Source: Geopsychrobacter sp.
GTDB lineage: Bacteria > Desulfobacterota > Desulfuromonadia > Desulfuromonadales > Geopsychrobacteraceae
Assembly (NCBI GenBank): GCA_012974425.1
Contig: JAAXQE010000318.1
Span: forward strand, 1-32,110
Length of the DNA stretch: 32,110 nt
Direction of reading: 5' to 3'
Below the pieces are notes generated by a model. That model was given only the letters and a program-made list of their open reading frames with translations, did not search any database and had not been told where the DNA came from. Shown piece by piece: positions 23,336 through 32,110 of this stretch (position 1 is its first letter; each line of letters opens with the position of its first letter). The position numbers and the translations under genes are program-made.

Positions 23336-25225
23336 TTACTTCTTATCGTCGGCAACATCTTCAAATTCGGCATCGACCACACCGTCATCGGCGTTCGACT
23401 CAGCGGCATCCTCGCCGGGCTGAGCATCTGCATACATGGACTCGGCCAGTTTGTGAGAGGCCTGGGCCAGGGCTTCAGATTTCTGCTTGATGATCTCAGG
23501 ATCATCACCCTCCAGCGCGGTTTTCAGCTCGGCCAGGGCCGCTTCGATCTGCCCTTTGGTTGCGCTGTCGATCTTTTCGCTGTGCTCCTTGACGGCTTTT
23601 TCTGTGGTGTAGATCAGGCCGTCAGCCTGGTTGCGGGCTTCAATCAGCTCACGCTTCTTCTGATCCTCGGTGGCATGGGCTTCGGCATCCGTGACCATAC
23701 GATCGATCTCTTCTTGTGAGAGGCCGCTCGATGCGGTGATCTGGATCGATTGCACCTTGCCGGTACCCAGATCCTTGGCGGAGACATGCAGGATGCCGTT
23801 GGCATCGATATCGAAGGTGACCTCTATCTGTGGTACGCCACGTTGTGCGGGTGGCAGACCAACCAGTTCGAAGTTGCCGATGGTCTTGTTGTCGGTCGAC
23901 ATTTCGCGCTCACCCTGCAGAACATGGACCGAAACCGCTGGCTGGTTGTCGGCTGCAGTCGAAAAGACCTGGCTCTTCTTACAGGGGACGGTGGTGTTCT
24001 TTTCGATCAACTTGGTCATGACGCCACCCAGGGTTTCGATACCGAGGGAGAGTGGTGTGACATCAAGCAGCAGCACGTCCTTGACTTCGCCGGTGAGAAC
24101 ACCGCCCTGGATAGCGGCGCCGATCGCAACGACCTCGTCGGGATTGACCCCCTTGCTTGGGTCCTTGCCGAAGATCTCCTTGACCTTCTGCTGAACGATC
24201 GGCATGCGTGACATGCCGCCAACCAGCAGGACCTCGTCGACATCATTGGCTGACAGACCGGCATCCTTGATCGCCGTCCGGCAGGGGGCGATCAATTTGT
24301 CGATCAAGTCAGAACAGATGCTCTCCAGTTTGGCGCGTGAGAGCTTGATGTTAAGGTGCTTCGGACCGCTCTGATCGGCGGTGATGAACGGCAGGTTGAT
24401 GTCGGTCTCCATCGACGAGGAGAGCTCGATCTTGGCCTTCTCGGCACCTTCTTTGAGGCGCTGCAGGGCCATTTTATCAGAGCGCAGATTAATCCCCTGA
24501 TCTTTCTTGAACTCATCAGCGATGTAATCGATGATGCGCTGATCGAAGTCTTCACCTCCCAGGAAGGTATCCCCGTTGGTCGATTTAACCTCGAAGACGC
24601 CGTCGCCGAGTTCCAGGATCGAAACATCGAAGGTCCCACCGCCCAGGTCAAAGACCGCGATGGTCATCTCTTGTTTTTTGTCGAGGCCGTAAGCCAGTGC
24701 GGCGGCAGTCGGCTCGTTGATGATGCGCAGAATGTTCAGACCGGCGATCTTGCCCGCATCCTTGGTTGCCTGACGCTGCGAGTCGTTGAAGTAGGCCGGT
24801 ACGGTGATGACTGCGTCAGTGACATCCTCGCCCAGATAGTCTTCAGCGGTCTGCTTCATCTTTTGCAGGATCATCGCCGAGATTTCCTGTGGGCTGTACT
24901 GCTTGCCGCGGGCCTCGACCCAGGCGTCGCCATTGTCAGCCTTGACAATCGTGAACGGGCTGATCTCCTGGTCCTTCTTGACCTGCTCGGTGTCATACTT
25001 GCGCCCGATCAGGCGTTTGATGGCAAAAAGGGTATTCTCCGGGTTGGTGACAGCTTGACGCTTGGCCTGCTGACCGACCAGCCGCTCACCTGATTCAGAA
25101 ATAGCAACCATCGAGGGAGTTGTGCGTGCACCTTCCGAGTTGGCGATGACAACCGGCTCGCCGCCCTCCATAATCGACACACACGAGTTGGTGGTGCCGA
25201 GATCGATTCCGATAACTTTAGCCAT
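23336..25225 (-). CDS. dnaK: Molecular chaperone DnaK (Hsp70)
   Basis: ATP-driven chaperone of 629 aa. Landmarks: the phosphate loop [13 protein letters not shown], the [12 protein letters not shown] motif, [36 protein letters not shown], the interdomain linker [15 protein letters not shown], and an acidic C-terminus ending DVADDKK. AAGGAGA lies before the ATG. All nucleotide-binding motifs are intact. It is third in the heat-shock operon: grpE precedes it by 59 bases and dnaJ follows by 96. The length is close to that of other bacterial DnaK proteins. Control is through HrcA and the CIRCE element at 27039-27065, although additional sigma-factor control cannot be excluded. Confidence 0.99.
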
Positions 25226-25284
25226 GATTCTTCTCCTTAAGTTCTAATTCAGGCCTTAAGACCTGTGCTTTATAGGTGTCCCTG

Positions 25285-25947
25285 TTATTCGCCATCTTCA
25301 GCAGGCGTCGGGGTCTCTTCGTTCTCAACTGCAGGTTGGGGTGCCTTGGCAACCATGACCATCGCCGGGCGGAGCAGGCGACTGTTCAGCAGGTAGCCTT
25401 TTTGGAGTTCATTGGCAACGTGGTTGGCCGGGACATCTGTGGTCTCGAGCTGACCCACCGCTTGATGATGAGCCGGGTCGAACGCCTCGCCCATTGAAGA
25501 GAGGGATTCGACCCCGAATTTCTGCAGTACGCTGTTGGACTGAGAGAGGGTCATCTCCACCCCTTCCAGCAGACCGGCACCATCATCCTGGCTCTTGGCA
25601 TGCTCAATCGCGCGTTCAAGATTGTCGATAACCGGCAGGATCTCGCGCAGAATATTCTCATTGCTGAATTTTGCGATATCTTCCTTTTCGCGCTGGGTCC
25701 GTTTGCGCAGGTTGTCCATCTCGGCCAGGGTGCGCAGATATTGCTCCTGATTGCTGCGCGCTTCTTCCCGGGCAGCTTCCAGGTCAGCGGTCAGGCTAGC
25801 TGTGTCACTGGTAATTTCTGCAATCTCTTCCTGCAACTCCTCCGGAATATCGACCTTGGGCCCGAAGTTTTCGGTCATTTCTTCTATCTCGGCCATATCT
25901 TCACGAGATAGCTCTTCTGTGATGTCCACTTTTTTCTTTTTTGCCAC
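25285..25947 (-). CDS. grpE: Nucleotide exchange factor GrpE
   Basis: Releases ADP from DnaK and acts as a thermosensing dimer. The track's start at 26016 would overlap hrcA by about 50 bases. The GTG at 25945-25947 ([14 protein letters not shown]) has GGAG nine bases upstream and gives a 220-aa protein without overlap, so it is preferred. Layout: a charged N-terminus, a long coiled coil (about 40-100, [38 protein letters not shown]), the [12 protein letters not shown] hinge, and the beta-wing end with [47 protein letters not shown] proline/alanine-rich C-terminal tail follows. It is second in the hrcA-grpE-dnaK-dnaJ operon. Confidence 0.97.
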
Positions 25948-25963
25948 CTTCTTGTTCTCCTTT

Positions 25964-27001
25964 TCAAGATTCTCGATCGAGAAGACGGCCAACCAGGCTG
26001 GCCGTAAAATCGACAATCGGGATAACCTGTGAATAATTCATACGAACCGGCCCGATGACGCCGAGAGTTCCGACGGCACCATTCTGACCGGAAAAAGGGG
26101 CGGTAATCAGGCTGCAGCCTTCAATTTTGGAATCTGAGGCCTGACTGCCAATAAAAATCTGGACCCCGCTGGCCGATTGACTGCTGTCGAGCAGTTCGAT
26201 CAACTGTTGCTTGCTTTCCAGGGTGCGCATGATCCTCATCATCGAGTCATGCGAGGCGAAATCGGGTTGTTCCAGCATGCGCGAGGTGCCGGCTACATAG
26301 ACCTGCTCGGCAATATCCCCTTGCAGGGCCTTGTCTGAAAGTTCAAAGGCCTGTTTCTGAATTTTGTTCAGCCGGGTTTTCTCTTCGCGCAGTTCAAAAG
26401 CGATCCTCTCGCGCACCTGAGTAATGGTCATCCCCGGCAAGCGGTGGTTCAGGTAGTTGGTGATCGATTCGAGTTCGCGCGCGCTGAAGTCGATGCCCGG
26501 CTCAATGACCTTGTTCTGAACCAGACCCGATTCAGAAACAAAAATCACCAGCAGGCGCCCCTGCGATAGCCGAACAAACTCGATCTGGCGAAAGATTGTC
26601 GAGTTGAAACGCGGCGCCATGACCAGCCCGGTATAGCTCGAGATGCCGGAGAGCAGGTTGCCGACTTCCTGCATGACATCTTCCATGCATTTGCCGGCAA
26701 AGCGCGTATCATCATCGATGCAGCTGCGAAACTCTTCTGACAGATCACGTATCTGTAACAGCGACTCGACGTAGTACTGGTAGCCCTTTTCGGTCGGAAT
26801 ACGCCCGGCAGAGGTATGCGGGGAGGCGAGAAAACCCATATCTTCGAGATCGGCCATGACATTGCGCACCGTGGCCGGAGAGAGGTGGAAGGCGTGGCGG
26901 GTGGTGATGGCGCGGCTACCGACCGGTTCTGCGGTATGGATATAATCCTCGATAATCGCCTCGAGGATGTTTTGACTGCGCTCGTTTAAGGGTGCACCCA
27001 T
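25964..27001 (-). CDS. hrcA: Heat-inducible transcription repressor HrcA
   Basis: DNA-binding repressor of heat-shock operons that binds CIRCE when it is folded with the help of GroEL. The ATG at 27001 gives a 345-aa protein beginning MGAPLNERSQNILEAIIEDY; a GTG five codons earlier is also possible, and neither has a strong ribosome site. The winged-helix N-terminus is clear (HTAEPVGSRAITTRHAFHLSPATVRNVMADLEDMGFLASPHTSAGRIPTEKGYQYYV), followed by a GAF-like dimer domain with FVRLSQGRLLVIFVSESGLVQNKVIE, and a closing MNYSQVIPIVDFTASLVGRLL. It is the first gene of its operon, so it represses itself through the perfect CIRCE site upstream. It sits beside hemW but has its own promoter. Confidence 0.97.
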   Translation of the reverse strand: MGAPLNERSQNILEAIIEDYIHTAEPVGSRAITTRHAFHLSPATVRNVMADLEDMGFLASPHTSAGRIPTEKGYQYYVESLLQIRDLSEEFRSCIDDDTRFAGKCMEDVMQEVGNLLSGISSYTGLVMAPRFNSTIFRQIEFVRLSQGRLLVIFVSESGLVQNKVIEPGIDFSARELESITNYLNHRLPGMTITQVRERIAFELREEKTRLNKIQKQAFELSDKALQGDIAEQVYVAGTSRMLEQPDFASHDSMMRIMRTLESKQQLIELLDSSQSASGVQIFIGSQASDSKIEGCSLITAPFSGQNGAVGTLGVIGPVRMNYSQVIPIVDFTASLVGRLLDRES

Positions 27002-27038
27002 CTTGAAAATACTCACTTAAAAGTGGCTTAAAACAACA

Positions 27039-27065
27039 TTAGCACTCAACGCGAGTGAGTGCTAA
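27039..27065 (-). promoter_or_regulatory. CIRCE operator (HrcA binding site)
   Basis: TTAGCACTC-N9-GAGTGCTAA is an exact match to the CIRCE consensus. It lies about 40 bases before the hrcA start and just after the candidate -10 box, so bound HrcA would block transcription of hrcA-grpE-dnaK-dnaJ. Confidence 0.97.
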
Positions 27066-27068
27066 TGG

Positions 27069-27097
27069 AAGTTACCAACCGCTCCCTGTTTTGTCAA
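27069..27097 (-). promoter_or_regulatory. Candidate promoter of the hrcA operon
   Basis: On the minus strand, TTGACA (27092-27097) is followed 17 bases later by TAACTT (27069-27074), directly in front of CIRCE. The -35 is perfect and the -10 is only moderate. Confidence 0.55.
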
Positions 27098-27108
27098 GCC
27101 GATTGGGA

Positions 27109-28236
27109 CTAAAGAAAGTGACTGATCAGATGATCGTAGAGTAACCAGCTTTCTGCCGTAAAAAAATAGTGGTTACCCCTTTGTTGCAGGTGGGGGCTGA
27201 GGCTGGCAAGGGCTGCGGGGAAGGCCTCTGCCAGTGAGATTCCGAAGCGCTGGGCAAAGGCCGCAGAATCGACCCCCTCACTGGTGCGCAAGGCCAGATA
27301 GAGGGTTTCTGCCATGGCCTGTCGTTGGTCGAATTCTTCCAGGAGTTCGGCCGGGTTCTGGCCGCGGTTGAGTTGTTGCTGATAGTTCATCAGGTCCGGC
27401 GGGATAGCGCTGCGCTTGCCGTAACCTGTGGCATCGAAAGCATGAGCCCCTGCACCAGCGGCAAGGCAGGTTTTGCGTTGCCAATAGGCCTGGTTATGGC
27501 GGCAGCGGAAGCCGGGCCGGGCAAAGTTGGAAATCTCGTAGTGCTCATAGCCTGCTGCGCTGAGGAGACGGTTCAGCTGCAGGTAGCTTTTTGCATAGGT
27601 TTCTTCATCAACTTCCGCGACTTGACCCCTGGTCACCATCTCTTGAAGAAGGGTATCGTTTTCGACAGAGAGACCGTAAATTCCGACGTGTTCAGGGGAA
27701 AGCGCCAGCAGTTTCTCTATCTCTTGTTCGAGATCAGAGGGGCCCTGGCCCGGCAGGGCAAAGATCAGGTCGACAGAGATGTTTGTGAAGCCGATGTCAC
27801 GCGCCAGCATGAAGGATTTCGCGGCCTCCTCGGCGCTGTGCCCACGGCCGAGAAGCTGCAGGTATTTATTATCGAAACTCTGGATTCCAAGGGAGAGACG
27901 ATTGATGCCCGCAGCCAGAAAGCCTGCGAGGGAGCTAGCCGTCAGGGTGCCGGGGTTGGCTTCAAGGGAGATTTCGATGTTCTGACTGAGGGGGAAGAGC
28001 TCCCGACAGCAGGCCAGAGTGCTGCTGACCTGCGCCGGAGAGAGCAGCGAGGGGGTACCGCCGCCGAAAAAAATCGTCTCAATCTCAGGTCTCTGTTCTG
28101 TGCCGATCAGCCGCAGGTTGCGCTCCAAGAGCAGGTGCCAGGTTGCTAGCTGATCTCCTGCCGGTGGGGCCGAGAAGAAGTCACAGTAGTGACACTTATG
28201 CGCGCAGAAGGGGATATGCAGATAGAGCCCGGCCAT
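27109..28236 (-). CDS. hemW: Radical SAM protein HemW (CPO-III-like)
   Basis: HemN/HemW-family radical SAM enzyme. The iron-sulfur motif CxxxCxxC is present (Cys11, Cys15, Cys18, in PFCAHKCHYCDFFSAP). HemW proteins are haem chaperones rather than true coproporphyrinogen oxidases; the short N-terminus, 375-aa length and lack of the extra HemN cysteine (CxxxCxxCxC) favour HemW. Other landmarks: TIFFGGGTPSLLSPAQV, INRLSLGIQSFDNKYLQLLGRGHSAEEA, ISVDLIFALPGQGPSDLEQE, and GYEHYEISNFARPGFRCRHNQAYW. GAGGA precedes the ATG. It stands between the antiporter-like cluster (23 bases) and the hrcA operon on the same strand, so it may be transcribed with the genes upstream. Confidence 0.95.
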   Translation of the reverse strand: MAGLYLHIPFCAHKCHYCDFFSAPPAGDQLATWHLLLERNLRLIGTEQRPEIETIFFGGGTPSLLSPAQVSSTLACCRELFPLSQNIEISLEANPGTLTASSLAGFLAAGINRLSLGIQSFDNKYLQLLGRGHSAEEAAKSFMLARDIGFTNISVDLIFALPGQGPSDLEQEIEKLLALSPEHVGIYGLSVENDTLLQEMVTRGQVAEVDEETYAKSYLQLNRLLSAAGYEHYEISNFARPGFRCRHNQAYWQRKTCLAAGAGAHAFDATGYGKRSAIPPDLMNYQQQLNRGQNPAELLEEFDQRQAMAETLYLALRTSEGVDSAAFAQRFGISLAEAFPAALASLSPHLQQRGNHYFFTAESWLLYDHLISHFL

Positions 28237-28259: not shown

Positions 28260-30038
28260 TCAGAGCAGGATGTAGCAGAGCGATAACACGACCAGAAAGA
28301 CGACCGCCAGAAAAACTCCGCCGCCGATCGGATAGGCCGCGTGGCGTGTGCGGTGCTCGGCCGCGGCGAGACGCTTGGCCAGATGTTCTTCGTCGCCAGT
28401 GGCTTCAACCAGCAGACGAACCCCATGTTTCTGCAGCGAGGCCGCCGGATCTTTGGCAAAGCGCGCCAGAACTGCGGGTAGTTCCTGCATGAATACCCGG
28501 TCGCCGAAGGCGTTGAGGCCGTTGAACAGTTTCTCACAGTTGGTGAAAAACAGCCGTCCGCCCTTGCGGTAAAACCAGTCGGTATCAAGATTAATCGCGC
28601 GGATTTCGGCCGGATAGATGCCGGACAGCATCAACAGCGCGAAAGCGAGAGCGCCGAACAACAGGGTCTGTAGCTGACCGATAACATGGGCGCCGGTATA
28701 GGGGAGGTAGTCGACTGGAAAAGGCAGTAGATTATAGAGCGGCTTTGGAAACAGACCGATCCCAAAGCAGAGTACGGCGGCAATCCCCATAGCCAGCAGC
28801 ATGTTCCATGGCGCTTCCTTCGGCCGTAATCCGGAATCACGCCCGAAAAACATGAAAAACGGGATCTTGATTCCGGCTATGAGAAAAACTCCGCTCGAAG
28901 CGAACATCAGGATCAGCCAGATCATTGTCAGGCCTTCGTAGCCTGCAGCGCTGACAATCATCGATTTACTGACAAATCCGGAAAAGAGCGGAAATGCCGA
29001 AATCGATGCGGCGCCGATAATACAACAGACACAGGTAAACGGCATATACCTGTAGAGTCCGCCGAGATCTGTACATTTGGTCTTGCCGGTCCGGTACATG
29101 ACGGCACCGGTACTCATGAAGAGCAGCCCCAGGTAGAGGACACAGACGATGGCGTGACTGATCGCACCGTTGATGGCCAAGGCCGAACCGATACCGACAC
29201 CACACATCATGAAGCCGCCCTGAATGATCAGGCTATAGGAAAGGACTCCGCGGGTGTCATTTTCAAGGACCGCGTAGAAGAGTGGGAGAAAGACCATCAA
29301 CGCACCGAGCCAGATCAGCATCTCGGTTCCGGGAAAGGTACGGGCCATAACATAGACCGCGCTCTTGGTGGTGAAGGCGCTGAGGAAGACCGCACCGGAA
29401 AAGGAGGCCGTAGGATATGCATCCTTGAGCCAGGCATGCAGCGGCGGGATCGCCGCGTTCACGGCAATTCCGATAAAGATCAGCGCTGAAGAAAGGCCGC
29501 TCAGACCGACAAATTCGACGGCCAGGGAACCGGTTTCATGCAGCCGCAGGACAATTCCGGCCAGCAGAAACAGGCCGCCGCAGAGATGGATCAAGATATA
29601 ACGGAACGCCGCATGGCGCGATGCCTGGTCACGGGCAGCCAGAACGACGAAGGTTGAGGCGATCGCCATCAGTTCCCAGAAGATGTAGAGGCTGAAGAAA
29701 TCGCCGGCAAAGGTGACCCCGAGAGCGCTGCCGGCATAGATCATCGCCGCAGACTGCTCGAGCCGGTCGTTGTTCTGCAGGGCAAAAAGAACGGCCAGAA
29801 AACTGATGATGCAGAAGATATAACCGAAAACCCGGTTCAAGCGATCAACCTTGAGCAGGGCCATCTCCTGGTCAAGAAAGTTATAGCTGAAGTGCACACC
29901 TTCAGGCAGAAAATAGACTGCAACCAGCGCCAGAAGGGGCGCGGTCAGCAGCACCAGTTTGCGTGGCCCACTCGGAAACAGCGGCGCGAGCAGCGCCGCG
30001 GCCAGAAACCAAAACGCCGGGGGCAACTCAGTTATCAT
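28260..30038 (-). CDS. Antiporter-like (NuoL/NuoM/MrpD family) membrane subunit, 592 aa
   Basis: Large inner-membrane protein of the proton-conducting family shared by complex I, Mrp Na+/H+ antiporters and membrane hydrogenases, with about 14-15 helices. Features: Glu122 in FWELMA corresponds to the key glutamate of helix 5; LHAWLKDAYPTASFSGAVFLSAFTTKSAVYV matches the HxWL...Lys block, with Lys225. But the usual lysine of helix 7 is replaced by Asn194 (GIAVNAAIPPLHAWL). The last 130 residues include a long amphipathic stretch and a final helix. The first codons overlap the 82-aa gene by 11 bases. Ion and partner cannot be assigned; the altered lysine may mean that it is not itself a pump. Confidence 0.88.
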   Translation of the reverse strand: MITELPPAFWFLAAALLAPLFPSGPRKLVLLTAPLLALVAVYFLPEGVHFSYNFLDQEMALLKVDRLNRVFGYIFCIISFLAVLFALQNNDRLEQSAAMIYAGSALGVTFAGDFFSLYIFWELMAIASTFVVLAARDQASRHAAFRYILIHLCGGLFLLAGIVLRLHETGSLAVEFVGLSGLSSALIFIGIAVNAAIPPLHAWLKDAYPTASFSGAVFLSAFTTKSAVYVMARTFPGTEMLIWLGALMVFLPLFYAVLENDTRGVLSYSLIIQGGFMMCGVGIGSALAINGAISHAIVCVLYLGLLFMSTGAVMYRTGKTKCTDLGGLYRYMPFTCVCCIIGAASISAFPLFSGFVSKSMIVSAAGYEGLTMIWLILMFASSGVFLIAGIKIPFFMFFGRDSGLRPKEAPWNMLLAMGIAAVLCFGIGLFPKPLYNLLPFPVDYLPYTGAHVIGQLQTLLFGALAFALLMLSGIYPAEIRAINLDTDWFYRKGGRLFFTNCEKLFNGLNAFGDRVFMQELPAVLARFAKDPAASLQKHGVRLLVEATGDEEHLAKRLAAAEHRTRHAAYPIGGGVFLAVVFLVVLSLCYILL

Positions 30039-30276
30039 AATAATCCTCGTCTTTCTTCACAAGCATGCGTAGTCCCTTGGCTCCCAACACCAGCAGCACA
30101 CAGGAGATAAATCCGTAAGCGGCGAAGAAGTTCGGTACGCCATCAAAACCGAAGGCAGGGTGCTTGGCGACAAAAAAGTCGAGGACCAGCAGCAATGCAA
30201 GGCAGGCGTAGAAAATCCGCAAAAACAGGGTCAGGTTGGTTTTTTTGTCAAACCAGCCACTTTTTTCTGTTTGCAT
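30028..30276 (-). CDS. Small membrane protein of the antiporter-like cluster (82 aa)
   Basis: An 82-aa protein starting at the ATG (MQTEKSGWFDKKTNL) that overlaps the TGA of the 52-aa gene in a TGATG pattern; the track's longer start at 30375 runs through that upstream gene. It has two membrane helices (about 15-35, LFLRIFYACLALLLVLDFFV, and 45-65, FFAAYGFISCVLLVLGAKGL), a short loop with HPAFGFDGVPN, and a charged C-terminus (KKDEDYYDN). The overlaps with both neighbours show it is translated as part of the membrane complex genes. It does not clearly match MrpC, E, F or G, and its function is unknown. Confidence 0.8.
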   Translation of the reverse strand: MQTEKSGWFDKKTNLTLFLRIFYACLALLLVLDFFVAKHPAFGFDGVPNFFAAYGFISCVLLVLGAKGLRMLVKKDEDYYDN

Positions 30277-30434
30277 CAGTGGCCCCCAGAAGAGAGCAGC
30301 CCGCTGAAAGCCAGCAGCAGGTATAGGGTACCCAGGACAAACACAAGATAAAATGCCACGCGATATCCCGGCCAAGGGGACTGTGCGAGGACAATAATCT
30401 CAGCCTGTTCATTCTTTTGAATATCCTCAGCCAT
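30276..30434 (-). CDS. Tiny single-helix membrane protein (52 aa), absent from the ORF track
   Basis: A 52-aa reading frame below the track's size limit. Evidence that it is real: a strong GGGAGG ribosome site seven to eight bases before the ATG, a start three bases after the MrpD-like stop, and a TGATG overlap with the next gene. The sequence begins MAEDIQKNEQAEIIVLAQSPWPGYRVAFYLVFVLGTLYLLLAF: a soluble N-terminus, then one membrane helix (about 26-46) and a Gly/Ser tail ending SGGH. No family recognised. Its packing between two antiporter-like subunits suggests a structural or assembly role in the same complex. Confidence 0.8.
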   Translation of the reverse strand: MAEDIQKNEQAEIIVLAQSPWPGYRVAFYLVFVLGTLYLLLAFSGLLSSGGH

Positions 30435-30437
30435 TGT

Positions 30438-31907
30438 TCAACCTCCCAGGGCCTGCTGTGCCAGTTGCAGGAAAATGCCGTGAAAAAAGAACAGAGCCAA
30501 TGAGGCGATGGCAGTCATGCAGAGCGGTACAAGACAGAAAAGCGGTGCTTCTTTGATTTCGTCAACCTCACCGGCAGGCAGGGGAACCATAAAGGCACGA
30601 TAAACGATCGGTAGAAAATAGGCAGCGTTCAGCAATGAACTGGACAGCAGGACGACCAACAATATCAACTGGCCACTATCTACGGCTCCGATCAACATCA
30701 TCCACTTGCTGGTAAAGCCGCCCATTGGAGGCAGGCCAATGATGCTCATTGCGCCGAGGGAAAAAGCGAAAAAAGTGATCGGCATTTTGCGACCCAGGCC
30801 ATCCATCTGGCTGATATATTTCTTTCCGGCCGCGACATAGATCGCCCCGGCGCAGAAGAACAGGGTGATCTTGCCGAAGGCATGCATGGCGATATGCAGC
30901 AGACCGCCGGTCATCCCGGCCGCCGTCAGCATCCCGGCGCCCAGAATCATGTAGGAAAGCTGGCCGATGGTTGAATAGGCCAGCCGGCGCTTGAGATTAT
31001 CCTGAGACAGAGCCACCAGCGAGGCGACGATAATCGTGATCGATGCAATGGTGGTAATGACAACGCCAAGATTCACATCCTGCAGCAGATCAACCCCGAA
31101 GATGTGGAAGATGACGCGCAGGATCGAAAAGACCCCGACCTTGACCACCGCCACGCCGTGTAAAAACGCACTGACCGGAGTCGGGGCGACCATTGCCGCC
31201 GGCAGCCAGCCATGAAAGGGCATCAGGCCGGCCTTGGCAAAGCCGAACAGAAACAGGACCAGAATCAGTCCCAGAGTCGCAGGACTCGCGCCGCTGCCGG
31301 TCAGGATCCCGCCCTGGCTGAAGTCGAGGGTGCCCGCCAACTGATAGGTCAGCAGCATCGCCGGCAGGGCAAAGCCGATCGAGGTGCCGAGGATGTAGGT
31401 CAGGTACTTGCGCCCGGACTTCTTCGCTTCGGCGTCCTGGTGATGGGCAACCAGCGGGTAGGTCGAGAGCGAGAGCATCTCGTAGAACAGGTAGAGGGTC
31501 AGCAGGTTGGCCGAAAAGGCCACGCCGATGGTCGCCGAGATCGCCACGGCAAAGGAGGCAAAGTAACGGGTCTGGTCGTGCTCATCCAGCGCGCGCATGT
31601 AGCCGATCGAATAGAGCGAGGTAAAAAACCAGAGGATTGAAGCGACCAGGGCGAAGAACATTCCCATGGCATCGACCCGCAACTGAATCGGCACATTGGG
31701 GATGACTTCGGCGATGGTAAAGACAAAGCCGCCGCCGTTCAAGACTGTTGGCAGCAGCGAGGCGACGATGATGACCTTGGCCGCCGCGATGAGCAGCGTC
31801 CAGCTTTCGCGCAGGTTTGGCTTGCGGTCAGAGGCCAGGATCGGGATCGCCCCGCAGAGGGAGACGAGAATTGCCATCAGCGGCCAGATGGAATATTGAT
31901 AAATCAT
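30438..31907 (-). CDS. MrpD/NuoM-like proton-conducting antiporter subunit, 489 aa
   Basis: Inner-membrane ion-translocating subunit with about 14 helices. The pumping residues known in NuoM and MrpD are present: Glu143 (LYLFYEMLSLSTYPLVAH), Lys225 (FGFAKAGLMPFHGWLP) and Lys256 (GVAVVKVGVF). Other hallmarks are APTPVSAFLH and RRLAYSTIGQLSYM. It should therefore be competent for proton or sodium movement, unlike the 592-aa paralogue, which lacks the middle lysine. The gene precedes the two tiny membrane genes by three bases and follows the C-terminus of another subunit after 22 bases, forming a tight minus-strand operon. Whether the complex is a secondary antiporter or an oxidoreductase module depends on genes beyond the window. 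Confidence 0.9.
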   Translation of the reverse strand: MIYQYSIWPLMAILVSLCGAIPILASDRKPNLRESWTLLIAAAKVIIVASLLPTVLNGGGFVFTIAEVIPNVPIQLRVDAMGMFFALVASILWFFTSLYSIGYMRALDEHDQTRYFASFAVAISATIGVAFSANLLTLYLFYEMLSLSTYPLVAHHQDAEAKKSGRKYLTYILGTSIGFALPAMLLTYQLAGTLDFSQGGILTGSGASPATLGLILVLFLFGFAKAGLMPFHGWLPAAMVAPTPVSAFLHGVAVVKVGVFSILRVIFHIFGVDLLQDVNLGVVITTIASITIIVASLVALSQDNLKRRLAYSTIGQLSYMILGAGMLTAAGMTGGLLHIAMHAFGKITLFFCAGAIYVAAGKKYISQMDGLGRKMPITFFAFSLGAMSIIGLPPMGGFTSKWMMLIGAVDSGQLILLVVLLSSSLLNAAYFLPIVYRAFMVPLPAGEVDEIKEAPLFCLVPLCMTAIASLALFFFHGIFLQLAQQALGG

Positions 31908-31929: not shown

Positions 31930-32109
31930 TCAGAAGCCAGCAGGCAGGGCCAGCTTGATGACCCCCTGGACCAGTTGGCCGGAACCGAGGCCGATAATTA
32001 TTAATGCCGCCGCGCTCACCAGCAGAGACCCCTGCATATACCAAGGTGCTGGGGGTGTTGGTTGTAGGGTTTGGTCATGTCCCTGGTCGCCTTTGCCGAA
32101 ATAGGCAAT
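31930..32109 (-). CDS. C-terminal end of a membrane subunit in the antiporter-like operon (partial)
   Basis: The last 59 codons of a gene cut by the window edge. The end reads IAYFGKGDQGHD..., a Pro/Gln-rich linker, then a single membrane helix (SLLVSAAALIIIGLGSGQLVQGVI) and LALPAGF. A hydrophilic segment followed by a final helix is typical for the C-termini of NuoL/NuoM/MrpD-like subunits, and its place directly upstream of the MrpD-like gene supports this. It is too short to name the subunit. Confidence 0.6.
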   Translation of the reverse strand: MAYFGKGDQGHDQTLQPTPPAPWYMQGSLLVSAAALIIIGLGSGQLVQGVIKLALPAGF

Positions 32110-32110
32110 T

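Follow-up and report, generated by a model that had tools for sequence, protein, structure and literature searches.

The window analysed here is a whole contig of 32,110 nucleotides, which ends inside the gene for the first of three antiporter-like subunits (D1). The genes and features considered, all on the minus strand, are as follows.

31930..32109, minus strand: 3' end of D1, the remainder lying on another contig (C77) of the same genome
30438..31907, minus strand: D2, MrpD-like antiporter subunit of 489 residues (Proton_antipo_M)
30442..30447, minus strand: GGGAGG ribosome-binding site of S52, within the 3' end of D2 (read from the sequence)
30276..30434, minus strand: S52, open reading frame for a single-helix membrane protein of 52 residues
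30028..30276, minus strand: S82, open reading frame for a two-helix membrane protein of 82 residues with a C-terminal EDYYD motif
30028..30038, minus strand: 11 bases shared by the 3' end of S82 and the beginning of D3 (read from the sequence)
28260..30038, minus strand: D3, antiporter-like subunit of 592 residues (Proton_antipo_M; NF009310 above its cut-off)

The two small genes thus sit between antiporter-like genes, where the original prediction had placed them. D2 runs to the last base of its stop codon at 30438, and S52 begins 3 nt further on; the GGGAGG motif, the strong ribosome site of that prediction, lies about 8 nt upstream of the S52 ATG. Both of the proposed overlaps are also present: the S52/S82 junction reads CACTGATGCAA (TGATG), so that the S82 ATG overlaps the S52 stop, and the 3' end of S82 shares 11 bases with D3. 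Scans for sigma-70 promoters and terminators gave a single promoter-like site, which scored below the shuffled mean. After D3, hemW, hrcA, grpE and dnaK follow on the same strand (23336-28236 of the window), and the same neighbours recur in the loci L034, L037 and L042.

The missing part of D1 was located on C77 by a search of the same genome (G000). The last 55 bases of the window (32056-32110) are identical to C77:1-55, which places an assembly break within D1, and the two contigs very probably join. C77 carries, in order, MrpE, MrpF, MrpG, DUF4040, an MbhE-like gene, MrpB, MrpC and most of D1. The full operon would then comprise twelve genes in the order MrpE-F-G-DUF4040-MbhE-MrpB-C-D1-D2-S52-S82-D3, a joined order that we infer because of the 55 shared bases and because relatives such as L042 show identical gene orders. 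MrpB, C, E, F and G are encoded together with MrpD-like genes in one operon, in the window plus C77 and in the same order in L042 and others, as in Mrp (CPA3) antiporters. C77 encodes DUF4040 and MbhE separately, not as parts of the fused single-polypeptide MrpA of groups 1 and 2, and the predicted end of D3 after a lateral helix and one transmembrane helix also counts against a fused MrpA. In the Pyrococcus MBH hydrogenase, the antiporter part is split into subunits in this same way. No redox subunit of the NuoA-E type was found in the operon on C77, using a reference set without hydrogenase subunits, and no nuo gene stands beside D2-D3 in the window. The suggestion that the small genes belong to an Mrp-like or hydrogenase-like complex is therefore borne out for Mrp, by the set of genes from MrpE to D1 on C77; its hydrogenase-like half finds no support in the window, and among redox complexes the closest relatives of the cassette lie in complex I operons. 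The operon resembles Mrp (CPA3) in having MrpE, F, G, B, C and D-type subunits and in the absence of any redox subunits found. Usual Mrp complexes have two antiporter-like subunits, whereas this operon has three, lacks a fused MrpA, encodes a D3 with a predicted lateral helix and contains two extra small genes.

D2 and D3 both keep the conserved Glu and Lys residues of antiporter-like subunits. D3 scores 695.1 bits against NF009310 (PRK12668, Na+/H+ antiporter subunit D), with a cut-off of 564. Its structure is predicted with good confidence (pLDDT 88), and the best structural matches are MrpA and NuoL; at lower local confidence, the model continues after the antiporter core with a long helix (487-547) and a final one (571-591), which would correspond to the C-terminal lateral helix and last transmembrane helix of NuoL/MrpA.

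The small proteins were predicted to match no known Mrp or complex I small subunit, and this was upheld, neither S52 nor S82 rising above the cut-off of any named family. S82 had no match in Pfam (E up to 10) or NCBIfam (E up to 1), and its profile gave only chance matches in the PDB. The best candidate for S52, NF046005 (MPN207a-like PTS accessory protein), reached 18.6 bits, below its cut-off of 45. S52 has about 20 polar residues, a GYRxxFY motif and a single hydrophobic segment, predicted to form one transmembrane helix (about residues 26-48). S82 has two hydrophobic peaks and is modelled with low confidence (pLDDT 68) as two long helices, 12-38 and 50-81; a structure search with this model returned no match. 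Since positive charges are commoner at both ends of S82 than in its loop, both ends are suggested to lie in the cytoplasm. MbhI-like proteins and the C-terminal elements of NuoL/MrpA are likewise short, with about two transmembrane helices, and lie next to antiporter-like subunits, but the S82 profile has no sequence match in the PDB. Compared with the lateral helix of NuoL/MrpA, the interhelix loop of S82 is too short, and D3 already carries a predicted lateral helix of its own.

A lack of conservation in related clusters would have spoken against the two genes; instead, conservation and synteny proved very strong. Significant S82 homologues occur in 40 of 60 related genomes, and of the 296 genomes of the phylum searched with the S82 profile, 134 have a match. 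S82 was further found in 9/150, 5/120 and 4/117 genomes drawn from the phyla of three genomes outside the phylum of the window, as well as in rhizobial plasmids, where, in the incomplete gene table used, it is annotated 'hypothetical protein' or unlisted. G55, C59, K67 and Y80 of S82 are conserved across phyla, K67 and Y80 being kept in 97-98% of 164 sequences, and in 18 S52 sequences, with homologues aligned from the same place, L16, G23, Y24, F28, G35, Y38 and L39 are invariant. Comparison with two close relatives (NG86) gave dN of 0.16-0.22 and dS of about 1.8-2.2 for S82, and dN of 0.24-0.32 and dS of about 1-2 or saturated for S52; these estimates indicate that both genes are under purifying selection. 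A D2-S82-D3 cluster with 81% identity to sequences of Desulfuromonadales type stands on L049, a contig assigned to a Chloroflexi genome, and this assignment may be a binning error.

The association of S82 with D3 is close to invariant. A D3-type gene lies directly downstream of S82 in 108/108 loci and a D2-type gene upstream in 107, the remaining one being cut by a contig end. In all sequence fetched, covering several bacterial phyla, a D-type (D3-type) gene follows 222 of 223 S82 matches, the exception lying at a contig edge; these and similar counts include related species and some genomes represented twice, and so are not counts of independent events. Wherever the contig allows, the order is D2-[S52]-S82-D3 in 140 longer loci (60 Mrp, 67 complex I and 13 unclear at contig ends), and D2-S82-D3 was found in 9/9 loci of two further phylum-level draws. 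Conversely, none of the 39 genomes picked because S82 had not been found in them has a protein above the NF009310 cut-off. Among these genomes, G015 holds a contig-edge fragment that could be a truncated D3. One Mrp operon (L194:5492-9771) has the tandem order D2-S82-D3-S82-D3, with the S82-D3 pair doubled behind a single D2, and S82 is thereby tied to D3 rather than to D2; this operon would provide four antiporter-like subunits if all are used. The second S82 copy there is more divergent than the first. The link of S82 to D3 is strongly supported. Direct-coupling analysis of 164 D2/S82/D3 triplets (Neff about 95) did not clearly separate the partners from the shuffled control.

Long frames in L105, L106 and L111 were considered as S82-D2 fusions and rejected; the D2 of L105 has its own stop overlapping the S82 start, and the long frame there is open by chance, the DNA being GC-rich. 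More generally, zero frames match both D-type proteins and S82. D2 and S82 are about 180 bases apart in L032 (11474-11650; L009 is on this contig too), with no recognisable S52 between them; the gap may be the remnant of a lost small gene.

S52 is far more restricted. S82 follows it in all 63 S52 matches in the sequence fetched, some genomes being represented twice, and S52 is confined to one supported clade (29 rows) of the D3 tree, apart from L271, a locus of another phylum. Only one row of the clade (L161) was scored without S52, and a weak S52 match lies at the corresponding position of this row in L097. Most cassettes have no S52, which is therefore dispensable for the general machine.

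The cassette also occurs in a second type of host complex. In complex I operons it stands between NuoK and NuoM or after NuoN, and NuoL is missing; D2-S82-D3 after NuoN, not in the NuoK/NuoM interval, was found in L109, L151, L155, L211 and L221, and two MrpD-like subunits replace NuoL within the nuo operon in L072, L114, L115 and many others. Complexes with such a replacement go by the name of green complex I (PMC9040806; PMC7415380). The same D2-D3 pair is present in the green complex I of rhizobia and in Complex_I_3 of Ca. Manganitrophaceae, which has two MrpD-like subunits for NuoL, and on pSymA of Sinorhizobium meliloti an S82 homologue lies between the D2 and D3 of green complex I; unlike these, the window operon is Mrp and not complex I. 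The D2-D3 pair in complex I is thus already published, and S52 and S82 are without a family name in Pfam or NCBIfam. No mention of either was found in the available parts of the literature on complex I with two MrpD-like subunits, and an earlier mention is possible. A D3 tree with 120 rows requires at least three switches of the Mrp/complex I label, and the S52 clade includes four complex I rows, all of one family, a lineage that carries D2-S52-S82-D3 in complex I. These context changes and the complex I rows within the S52 clade show that the D2-S52-S82-D3 cassette has moved as a unit between complexes.

S82 is very probably a real, unnamed part of Mrp and variant complex I machines, most likely a structural or assembly subunit dedicated to D3, with S52 as an optional accessory; physical membership in the complex is inferred from the association of the genes. 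In the proposed scheme the window operon encodes a membrane cation/proton antiporter with D1, D2 and D3 as its three antiporter-like subunits, predicted to exchange protons for sodium or potassium in this organism. D2 and D3 would form a transferable module, used also in some bacterial complex I enzymes in the place of NuoL. The S82 hairpin of two helices would pack against D3, with the D2/D3 boundary or its vicinity as the likeliest site, and may be needed for folding D3 or holding it in place, and S52 would be an optional single-helix accessory of the module. We regard this explanation as a whole, with S82 as a dedicated small subunit of the D2/D3 module, S52 as an optional accessory and a three-subunit Mrp antiporter, as probable.

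Co-occurrence and gene order also fit a role in which S82, and S52, help D3 to assemble or insert but form no part of the mature complex, and the small size and translational coupling to D3 would suit co-translational insertion. Set against this, on grounds of plausibility, the dedication to one subunit, the constant place between D2 and D3 and the copying together with D3 are more typical of a stoichiometric subunit, and we judge such a purely assembly role unlikely. It is more doubtful still that the two are regulatory small membrane proteins of the KdpF or AcrZ style, binding according to conditions. The optional, clade-limited S52, a single transmembrane helix with a short conserved motif, would suit this role better than S82, whose near-invariant occurrence is unusual for a modulator. 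The overlapping starts and stops might also suggest that the frames do no more than couple translation of D2 and D3 (by reinitiation), with functionless products. Residues of S82 conserved across phyla and the purifying selection speak against this, as do the S82-D3 junctions, which range from overlap to gap across loci with the S82 protein kept; this last possibility is strongly disfavoured and seems very improbable.

How many subunits Mrp antiporters and bacterial complex I contain is regarded as a settled matter. A broader claim, to which we incline with somewhat less assurance than to S82 as a dedicated subunit, is that every D2/D3-type module, in Mrp and green-type complex I alike, has S82 as an obligatory subunit that has gone unrecognised. 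The module (D2-S82-D3, in one lineage with S52) would then be a plug-in by which unrelated membrane complexes gain an ion-pumping unit. Should S82 be structural, the inventory of subunits is incomplete for those complexes that have two MrpD-like subunits instead of NuoL, and attempts to purify, model or heterologously express them without S82 may fail. The cassette also offers a natural comparison of one pump module in a redox-driven and in a purely antiport complex, and comparing Mrp with complex I in this way is relevant to the addition and coupling of antiporter-like subunits.
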